From positions 1 to 23,501 of the IMG/VR virus record IMGVR_UViG_3300046355_000136: 23,501 nucleotides of DNA; one strand, given 5' to 3'. This document shows positions 19,510-23,501 of this stretch, in pieces (within the stretch, counting starts at the first letter, position 1; every line of letters begins with the position of its first letter). Both the position numbers and the translations under genes were made by a program. Source of the stretch: a virus. The notes under the pieces are model-generated. The model ran no database searches, was not told the DNA's origin, and saw nothing but the letters and a program-made list of their open reading frames with translations.

Positions 19510-19536
19510 AAAAAGGCTCCTTCGGGAGCCTTTTTT
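19509..19536. terminator. Strong bidirectional intrinsic terminator
   Basis: AAAAAAGGCTCC, a TTCG tetraloop and GGAGCCTTTTTT form a perfect 12-bp stem with an ultra-stable C(UUCG)G closing loop. It works on both strands: for the endolysin operon (plus) and for the convergent small-gene operon (minus), whose last stop codon begins inside the T-tract. Confidence 0.9.
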
Positions 19537-19954
19537 ATTGGGGCACTTGCCCGCCAAAGTAGGCCATGGGTAGCGCCATCAGTTCGGAAGCATTTACGAA
19601 CGTGGTGTACTCGGACCATGGCTCCTGTGGAGTGAAAGCCAGAACCTTGACACGAGCTCCTGTTTCAAGCGCTATGACGTGCATTTCGTTCCAGAGGTAC
19701 CTGTGCCCTTGCCGAGCAATTTGAGGCCTCTGTGGCCCCGATACGAGGCCTTGCTTCCACTTGACCACGGGCTTGATCTGGCAGCTGTGGTGCAACACAG
19801 AGTTGCCCTTGGCACCTTTACGGTGAACCACGTACTTGATGCCGCCTAAAGCTGATGGCCCAGCAGAGATCAAGGTAAAGCGCTGACCGGTACGGGTCAG
19901 GTAGAAGTCGAAGCCAACAGGCAAAAGCCTGAGGGTCATGGGCTTGCGCATCAT
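19535..19954 (-). CDS. Unknown phage protein, last in 4-nt-overlap chain
   Basis: A protein of 139 residues from the ATG overlapping the previous stop (ATGA). The sequence is beta-rich and basic, with GQRFTLISAGPSALGG, KYVVHRKGAKGN and TFVNASELMALP. Two residues near the end of the operon (VPQ) abut the bidirectional terminator. A longer reading from 19981 is possible but lacks coupling. No family was recognised. Confidence 0.55.
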   Translation of the reverse strand: MMRKPMTLRLLPVGFDFYLTRTGQRFTLISAGPSALGGIKYVVHRKGAKGNSVLHHSCQIKPVVKWKQGLVSGPQRPQIARQGHRYLWNEMHVIALETGARVKVLAFTPQEPWSEYTTFVNASELMALPMAYFGGQVPQ

Positions 19955-21090: not shown

Positions 21091-21120
21091 TTCAATTGCA
21101 GGATTCCGCTTCAATTGCAG
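21091..21120. repeat. Direct repeat TTCAATTGCAG, two copies 19 bp apart
   Basis: Perfect 11-base copies at 21091-21101 and 21110-21120, just upstream of the micro-protein start. They share the core AATTGCAG with the pair at 21345-21363 on the other side of the tRNA-like segment. They could be integrase arm sites or operator/promoter sites for the minus-strand operon. Confidence 0.45.
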
Positions 21121-21129
21121 AACCCAAAG

Positions 21130-21162
21130 AAAAAGGGTCTAGGCGGTTAAGCCTAGACCCTT
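21130..21162 (-). terminator. Intrinsic terminator
   Basis: On the minus strand AAGGGTCTAGGC, a 6-base loop and GCCTAGACCCTT (12-bp perfect stem, 21133-21162) run into TTTCTTT. It stops transcription arriving from the right, insulating the tiled operon from the genes beyond 21328. Confidence 0.8.
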
Positions 21163-21179
21163 GATTTTGCTACGTTTAT

Positions 21180-21224
21180 TGGCGCGCCCGGCAGGATTCG
21201 AACCCACGACCCCTTGGTTCGTAG
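21180..21224 (-). other. tRNA-Arg(ACG) 3' half, candidate attachment-site core
   Basis: On the minus strand this reads anticodon loop CTACGAA (ACG), 3' stem CCAAG, variable GGGTC, T-arm GTGGG-TTCGAAT-CCTGC, acceptor strand CGGGCGC, discriminator G and encoded CCA. The 5' half (expected to begin GCGCCCG) is absent upstream. Sequence before the loop does not pair with the CCAAG arm. A 3' tRNA half starting in the anticodon loop is the usual content of a tyrosine-integrase attP. Confidence 0.6.
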
Positions 21225-21255
21225 ACAGCTTGTTTGCCGTACCTGACAGCGTTAG

Positions 21256-21325
21256 AAATCAATGGCTTGGGACACCCAGTTCACGCAAGAGGCGAGATAT
21301 GGGTACCACGCTAAGTCATTGATTT
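21256..21325. repeat. Imperfect inverted repeat beside the tRNA-like core
   Basis: AAATCAATG at 21256-21264 faces CATTGATTT at 21317-21325 (perfect over 9 bases; 13 of 15 including the flank AAATCAATGGCTTGG). The arms are 52 bases apart. They might bind a protein such as an integrase or excisionase, but length alone does not prove it. Confidence 0.35.
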
Positions 21326-21327
21326 TA

Positions 21328-21603
21328 TTAGGTGGTCGGACGGGCAATTGCAGGAATTGCAGGCCCTTGCTTGCTCCTCACGTACTTGATGAGGCGCACG
21401 ATCCCGGTCATGCCACGGCGCTGCTCACGGATCCACCAGGTGCCCCGCATGGGCCAGAAGTCGATGGTCTCTGTGTGCGTGCGGATGGTGATGTAGTCAT
21501 GGGTTGCCGAGGCCTCGAACTTGATGCCGTCGCGCTGCAGATGCTGGCAGACATGGGTCATGGTCAGCGGCACCCGAGTCAGGGGTTTGCGGCCGCGCTT
21601 CAT
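21328..21603 (-). CDS. Unknown small basic phage protein
   Basis: A protein of 91 residues from the ATG at 21603, which overlaps the upstream stop by 4 nt. It opens with a basic KRGRKPLTRVPLT, then a helix, then an ITIRTHTETIDFWPMRGTWWIR strand region resembling small nucleic-acid-related phage proteins. Its C-terminal PAIPAIA is encoded by the tandem AATTGCAGG repeat. Function unknown. Confidence 0.55.
   Translation of the reverse strand: MKRGRKPLTRVPLTMTHVCQHLQRDGIKFEASATHDYITIRTHTETIDFWPMRGTWWIREQRRGMTGIVRLIKYVRSKQGPAIPAIARPTT
21345..21363. repeat. Tandem AATTGCAGG repeat
   Basis: Two adjacent AATTGCAGG copies (21346-21354 and 21355-21363) in the same orientation as the pair at 21091-21120. 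They lie inside the 3' end of the 21328-21603 gene, so they are also constrained as protein code. Together the four copies bracket the tRNA-like core. Confidence 0.4.
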
Positions 21604-21997: not shown

Positions 21998-22099
21998 TCA
22001 TCGGTTTGACCACCTCCGCTTTGCGTCGGTAGATTTGTTTTGTGGTTTAGCTGTCAGCGCGCGGACTTCATCTTCCGAAAGGAAGGTGTCAGTGGCCAT
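21998..22099 (-). CDS. Micro-protein, 33 residues, DUF4224-like start
   Basis: An ATG at 22099 (overlapping the previous gene by 11 nt) opens 34 codons ending in TGA at 21998. The first residues, TFLSEDEVRALTA, resemble the start of DUF4224 proteins, which often sit beside phage integrases. The rest (KPQNKSTDAKRRWSNR) is basic and shorter than the family. It may be a truncated relative or an unrelated short peptide. Confidence 0.35.
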   Translation of the reverse strand: MATDTFLSEDEVRALTAKPQNKSTDAKRRWSNR

Positions 22100-23106: not shown

Positions 23107-23147
23107 GTTTTGTCCTAAAATAAGGATATTCTTTGAAAGGGAAACCT
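23107..23147. promoter_or_regulatory. Divergent intergenic region with short inverted repeat
   Basis: 41 bases between two divergent starts, rich in A+T. TCCTAAAATAAGGA (23113-23126) is a short inverted repeat (TCCT/AGGA) that covers the ribosome site of the minus-strand gene. GAAAGG serves the plus-strand gene. Divergent promoters are expected here or inside the flanks; none is certain. Confidence 0.25.
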
Positions 23148-23501
23148 ATGGCCGCCGCTGAATTGATCTGCAAGCTGTTCCATGCCCGCACAGCGGCTCA
23201 CATGGCTCATCTCCAAACCACCTCTTATGCCCAGCACAAGGCGCTCAACGACTTCTATGACGGAATCGTTGGCCTAGCTGATGACTTTGCTGAGACCTAC
23301 CAAGGCATTTTTGGCCTGATTGGTCCTTACCCTGAGATGGCCATGCCATCGGGCAAGCCGACAGAATGGATTGATGGCTTGCGCACTTGGCTCAAGGAAT
23401 ACCGCAAGGAATGCTGCCAAGGCGAAACGCCGTTGGAGAACATTCATGACGAGATTCAAGCGCTGTGTGCCAGCACGGTTTACAAGCTGAAGTACTTGGA
23501 C
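23148..23501 (+). CDS. Helical phage protein, DUF5856-like (partial)
   Basis: A frame of 118 codons is open to the right edge, starting ATGGCCGCCGCT after GAAAGG. The HARTAAHMAHLQTTSYAQHKAL and DFYDGIVGLADDFAETYQG segments form an all-helical, His/Glu-rich pattern like the DUF5856 proteins of large phages, whose role is unknown. The His and acidic residues recall ferritin-like folds, which is an inference. The C-terminus is missing. Confidence 0.55.
   Translation, partial: MAAAELICKLFHARTAAHMAHLQTTSYAQHKALNDFYDGIVGLADDFAETYQGIFGLIGPYPEMAMPSGKPTEWIDGLRTWLKEYRKECCQGETPLENIHDEIQALCASTVYKLKYLD

Follow-up and report, generated by a model that had tools for sequence, protein, structure and literature searches.

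How a phage comes to carry one half of a transfer RNA gene, and what this half says about its way of life, is the question raised by positions 21180-21224 of the viral contig considered here (the window, by which we mean the whole stretch of 23,501 nucleotides that was analysed). The minus strand of this segment, CTACGAACCAAGGGGTCGTGGGTTCGAATCCTGCCGGGCGCGCCA, corresponds to tRNA-Arg(ACG) from the ACG anticodon loop through the encoded CCA, and a first-pass annotation had described it as an orphan 3' half and a candidate phage attachment site. The orphan 3' half is borne out in full. The match is exact at 45 of 45 positions, whereas 200 shuffles reached at most 28/45, which excludes chance. With its default threshold, ARAGORN detected neither a tRNA nor a tmRNA in the whole window, and no tRNA was called there when introns of up to 3 kb were allowed. 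A relaxed threshold yielded 22 scattered low-quality calls across the window, including a malformed one at 21180-21275, which we take as noise. The 5' half of tRNA-Arg(ACG) has no match in the window with up to three mismatches, and its best ungapped match anywhere in it (19/32) is at the level of the shuffle mean of 19; a search of curated RNA families gave nothing relevant. As ARAGORN with and without introns and the searches for the 5' half all came back empty, a complete or intron-split tRNA is ruled out.

In a scan of one genome per species, the exact 45-mer was present in at least 120 genome stretches, mostly of Betaproteobacteria, and the carriers among the matches listed include Nitrosomonas, Nitrosospira, Bordetella, Zoogloea, Lautropia and other members of this class. 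Extended by the two preceding bases of the window (GT), it was found in no genome, so that the identity between phage and host starts at C32, precisely at the edge that had been proposed. The fetched loci of genomes and viruses contain 146 copies. Most of them (126) belong to complete tRNA-Arg(ACG) genes, in every one of which C32 is preceded by GG; 17 are orphan 3' halves, and the other three run into N or the end of a contig. The presumed core matches the 3' end portion of a host tRNA gene base for base, and the suggested check for a bacterial tRNA-Arg sharing at least 40 bases at its 3' end has a positive answer in these complete genes. The accompanying guess of a Burkholderiales tRNA-Arg and host was right about the tRNA; as to the host, it is a little too narrow under the older taxonomy, since Nitrosomonas/Nitrosospira, Bordetella, Lautropia, Zoogloea and others carry the block, and it should read Betaproteobacteria.

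The same block occurs in three IMG/VR virus records, G001 (71,514 b), G002 (71,628 b) and G003 (20,831 b). G001 and G002 can be aligned over their whole length as circularly permuted versions of one another, and both thus look complete. G001 encodes the N4 virion RNA polymerase (3,450 aa), an N4-type portal, RNAP2 and a DNA polymerase, and the virion RNA polymerase is also encoded by G002 and by the record containing a further locus, L166; these records are therefore N4-like (Schitoviridae-type). Over its first 5.4 kb the window shares 92.6% identity with G001, and it represents a 23.5-kb part of a genome for which a DNA search for a close known phage returned none. A search for an HTH_3 (CI-type) repressor in G001, G002 and the record of L166 gave none, which makes a DUF5856 / phrog_858 gene ('starvation-inducible transcriptional regulator') a possible lifestyle regulator; it lies at 23133-23501 of the window and at L027 6270-6695 (G001:66270-66695), on the strand opposite to the early genes. 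Two other features of the window are recorded here in their own right. The tail protein encoded at 5377-6474 matches phrog_496 and the lambda central tail fiber J families, which is unusual beside N4-like genes, and a strong bidirectional terminator-like hairpin at 19512-19537, in the stretch that separates the endolysin gene from the convergent early genes, gave sub-threshold matches to Rfam Atu_C8 on both strands.

The surroundings of the block (Table 1) are 94.6% identical to G001 over 518 bp and 88% identical to G002 over 535 bp. Judged from the sequence, their layout of paired outer repeats, two IHF-consensus sites, core and terminator supports the 45 nt as the core of a lambda-type attP. 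For the IHF consensus and the lambda layout we rely on established knowledge of lambda, and all assignments of proteins to these sites, including the predicted integrase and IHF sites, are to be read as predictions.

Table 1. Features of the putative attachment site and of the integrase deletion in the window, with strand and basis of placement.
Feature	Position	Strand	Basis
Whole attP as delimited, about 270 bp	21094..21362	-	similarity to G001, G002
Candidate arm-type repeat P1, CTGCAATT, upstream arm	21355..21362	-	
Candidate arm-type repeat P2, CTGCAATT, upstream arm	21346..21353	-	
IHF-consensus site H1, AATCAATGACTTA, 100 nt upstream of C32	21312..21324	-	match to WATCAANNNNTTR
IHF-consensus site H2, opposite orientation, 45 nt upstream of C32	21257..21269	+	match to WATCAANNNNTTR
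tRNA-Arg(ACG) 3' half, C32 to CCA; putative attP core and segment rebuilding the host tRNA	21180..21224	-	exact genome matches, no 5' half
CTACGAA, anticodon loop; putative 7-bp strand-exchange region	21218..21224	-	left edge of phage/host identity
IHF-like site H', downstream arm, one mismatch	21154..21166	-	exact in G001
Intrinsic terminator, 12-bp stem and T run, just behind the tRNA half	21133..21162	-	perfect inverted repeat
Candidate arm-type repeat P'1, CTGCAATT, downstream arm	21113..21120	-	
Candidate arm-type repeat P'2, CTGCAATT, downstream arm	21094..21101	-	
Integrase relic, last ~21 codons	21993..22058	-	alignment to intact integrases
Deletion junction, CGCTGAC microhomology	22053..22059	-	alignment to relatives
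Fused reading frame, 33 aa	21998..22099	-	first DUF4224 (excisionase-position) codons, out of frame to integrase tail

The IHF consensus is matched only twice in the whole window, at H1 and H2. Consensus sites at the same distances (-100/-45) recur in G001, G002, G003 and the attR of two bacterial prophages discussed below (Nsp11 and G217), and at -101/-45 in L166, although the sequence between them differs among the records. An IHF site at some distance lies upstream of 15 of 23 orphan halves, as against one of 119 complete tRNA genes. The repeat CTGCAATT has four copies around the core, two per side, and one more elsewhere in the window. Other phages with an orphan half have repeats of their own on both sides in similar places (TGTGCCATAG, TGCGTCATAG, TTGTACTATCG, TGTGCAATTC), and a repeat that differs from phage to phage is as expected if the arm sites vary between integrases. 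Both marks of a lambda-type intasome, repeats of arm type on either side of the core and consensus matches for IHF at fixed places, thus appear to be present in the sequence. A test for 9-mers shared between the arms was clear for most phages and empty for Nsp11, L039 and L097, and its cross-locus controls shared 9-mers in 55 of 176 pairs; the arm repeats alone are therefore weaker evidence than the fixed IHF spacing. In the hosts, the anticodon stem flanks CTACGAA in the manner of inverted core-type half sites, and the exact point of strand exchange would presumably fall within the anticodon loop. The terminator would end the transcript of the rebuilt tRNA. Equivalent hairpins with different stem sequences are present in the relatives, and in an automatic test hairpins followed 8 of 22 orphan halves and 58 of 122 complete genes, as against none of 500 random pieces; since complete tRNA genes have them as well, the terminator is not special to attP. 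A search of titles and abstracts for attP sites in the anticodon loop of tRNA-Arg brought up nothing that bears directly on the case.

G001, G002 and G003 each encode one tyrosine integrase (PF00589 above the cut-off), a reading frame of 363 aa at about 0.8 kb from the tRNA block. It is preceded by a DUF4224 gene, intact in G001, at whose position a putative excisionase is annotated in Xanthomonas phage PBR31. Between G001 and G002 the integrase has a dN/dS of 0.05, which indicates that the gene is maintained by purifying selection. Of the tyrosine recombinase catalytic residues R-K-HxxR-H-Y, the relatives' integrases possess K, HDLR, H and Y. The position of the first Arg (TGxR) is occupied by A/P/S, with Gln next to it, in the N4-like members; in the integrases of the Nsp11 and G217 prophages it is Ala, with Arg as the next residue, and in most other relatives it is Arg. 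As purifying selection acts on them, the N4-like integrase genes are presumably functional. The motif that replaces the canonical first catalytic Arg in the N4-like and related integrases (L175, L176, L177, L178, L179) reads TGM[APS]QGDLL; in the Nitrosospira prophage integrase the signature is TGMARSDLL, with Ala at the first-Arg position and Arg one residue later.

What such integrases do at this tRNA can be read from two prophages that are not N4-like. In Nitrosospira sp. Nsp11, a complete tRNA-Arg(ACG) (C34:101299-101343) and an integrase with 60% identity to that of G001 are 105 bp apart, and the orphan 45-mer is found 39.4 kb from this complete tRNA, the shared repeat being TGG plus the 45-mer. 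Similarly, G217 has an integrase 58% identical to that of G001 beside a complete tRNA and an orphan copy 51.5 kb away. With a complete tRNA at one end and the orphan repeat at the other, these two prophages show that integration by their integrase family rebuilds tRNA-Arg(ACG), and together with the integrases beside the block in the relatives they bear out the candidate attachment site. No N4-like provirus at tRNA-Arg(ACG) was present in the genomes sampled; a match to the N4-type portal in G037 was rejected as such a provirus, its neighbours not being relatives of G001 genes.

Further traces of related elements were noted in passing. In Nitrosospira sp. Nsp14 (L207 3203-3590) an orphan 45-mer adjoins a fragment of a decayed integrase, probably what is left of an old prophage, and in Nitrosospira multiformis Nl12 (L045 5147-5863) a frameshifted integrase lies beside a complete tRNA-Arg(ACG). 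The 43.5-kb plasmid NZ_CP098024.1 of Microbulbifer sp. MI-G (L035 1599-1649) has a similar tRNA-Arg(ACG) 3' half without a 5' half, with ATTGATTT upstream and a terminator-like hairpin behind it, and may be a phage-plasmid or an integrative element whose att site is of the same kind.

The window itself holds no intact integrase: PF00589 has no match in it, and only a relic of the gene is left. Relative to G001, G002 and G003, about 1.2 kb comprising the integrase and the DUF4224 gene are missing from this single metagenome contig assembly. CACGCTGAC is found at both ends of the deleted stretch in G002; the microhomology measures 7-9 bp. In the relic, one can still read the codon of the catalytic-Tyr motif (IYRRK), an in-frame TAA has arisen at 22047-22049, and the substitutions relative to G001 include an Arg-to-Gln change. 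The remaining ~48 kb of the phage lie outside the contig, and another integrase could be encoded there, although in G001 and G002 there is just one per genome. The expectation of an integrase elsewhere in the phage is thus answered by a relic and by the PF00589 integrases of the relatives, with none intact in the window, and the objection that there might be no integrase of any kind does not apply in substance, because relic and relatives show what was lost. The site is attP by descent, and the phage stems from an integrating lineage that has probably lost autonomous integration. Of the earlier suggestion that the phage is temperate, or recently was, it is the second half that stands as far as can be read from the DNA, the integrase being a deletion relic.

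Very probably, then, the 45 nt form the core of a lambda-type attP inherited from N4-like ancestors that integrated into the tRNA-Arg(ACG) gene of betaproteobacteria, with the integrase since deleted and the phage now probably obligately lytic. Integration via attP would have involved the DUF4224-associated tyrosine integrase acting on the arm-type repeats, with the help of host IHF at H1, H2 and H', and strand exchange across the anticodon loop. The phage would then provide the replacement 3' half (to CCA) together with the terminator, so that the tRNA would stay intact in the lysogen. One deletion of ~1.2 kb between short repeats would have taken out the DUF4224 gene together with all but the end of the integrase, while leaving attP in place; with its integrase deleted, the phage could not integrate by itself and would probably be obligately lytic. 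Several points weigh against this reading: the single assembly behind the deletion, the ~48 kb outside the contig, the negative searches for a CI-type repressor in the relatives and for an N4-like provirus at this tRNA in the sampled genomes, and the replaced first Arg of the N4-like integrases.

Could the site still be in use? If a resident prophage or a co-infecting sister phage provided an integrase in trans, the phage would be conditionally temperate; in favour of this are the intact attP, at 94.6% identity to that of G001, and the same-family integrases with the same target tRNA that circulate in betaproteobacteria. However, the arm repeats vary by phage, so that a foreign integrase would need specificity for CTGCAATT, and the conservation of attP may reflect nothing but a recent loss of the integrase; we consider this use unlikely. 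We give a similarly small chance to the more general idea that integrase-less N4-like phages keep attP by way of sister integrases in trans, which work without the canonical first Arg (TGM[APS]Q) despite being under strong purifying selection. It is equally unlikely that the deletion arose as an artefact of assembly, or is carried by a minority only, in a population that is really temperate. The deletion is seen on a single metagenome contig, and the same junction was found in no other viral contigs; on the other hand, a repeat of 7-9 bp is too short for the collapse of a usual assembly, and the in-frame TAA and the Arg-to-Gln change relative to G001 are as expected of a real relic.

A functional RNA, be it a tRNA half, an intron-split tRNA or a phage-made tRNA mimic, is very improbable. 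The encoded CCA, the terminator behind it and a region that folds better than shuffles (z -2.7) would fit such an RNA, but what is stable in the fold is the terminator together with the inverted pair of IHF sites, there is neither a 5' half nor an intron call, the host identity ends at the anticodon loop, and the att architecture and integrase partners account for the block. Hardly any weight remains for host DNA at a prophage edge or in a chimeric contig: orphan halves do occur at prophage ends, but this one is flanked by phage genes, and independent phage genomes of ~71.5 kb repeat the arrangement, so that the relatives already contradict it.

The proposed lambda-type attP is best compared with the tRNA-gene attP sites of tyrosine-integrase phages, whose intasome comprises arm sites, IHF sites H1/H2/H' and a core. 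As in these, the core is a tRNA 3' half, repeats and IHF-consensus sites appear in both arms by sequence, and an integrase is adjacent in the relatives of the window, whereas the window phage itself has lost the gene. The Nsp11 prophage shares the tRNA, the 45-bp block and the IHF distances, together with the related integrase, but it measures 39.4 kb, about half the genome size of the N4-like relatives, its integrase is intact and has the signature TGMAR, and the N4-type portal has no match in the Nsp11 genome. Xanthomonas phage PBR31 resembles the relatives in an integrase 58.7% identical to that of G001, with the excisionase-position gene upstream, and in that the integrase is followed by a tRNA 3' half that has repeats on either side; unlike them, it is a 40-kb phage, and its half is from another tRNA (tRNA-Ser-like by eye).

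A study of N4-like viruses (PMC10654107, mSystems 2023) reports 54 genomes with lysogeny hallmark genes, states that the group had been considered strictly lytic, and proposes from integrase genes and proviruses that its members can be temperate. The relatives studied here are likewise N4-like genomes encoding integrases; a term search of the main text of that study found no attachment site, and a search of titles and abstracts for Schitoviridae att sites brought up nothing that bears directly on the case. Relative to that text, what is defined here is an attP, its attB and a secondary loss of the integrase. New are the findings that the closest relatives, two apparently complete N4-like genomes of ~71.5 kb, share this attP and keep an intact integrase on which purifying selection acts, and the removal of the window's integrase and DUF4224 neighbour by one microhomology deletion of ~1.2 kb. 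An intact attP alone is no proof that a phage is temperate today. The locus nevertheless gives the exact attP, the target tRNA-Arg(ACG) of betaproteobacteria, the integrase of the sister genomes and a natural deletion variant, and with these in hand, lysogeny in N4-like phages and its loss become directly testable.
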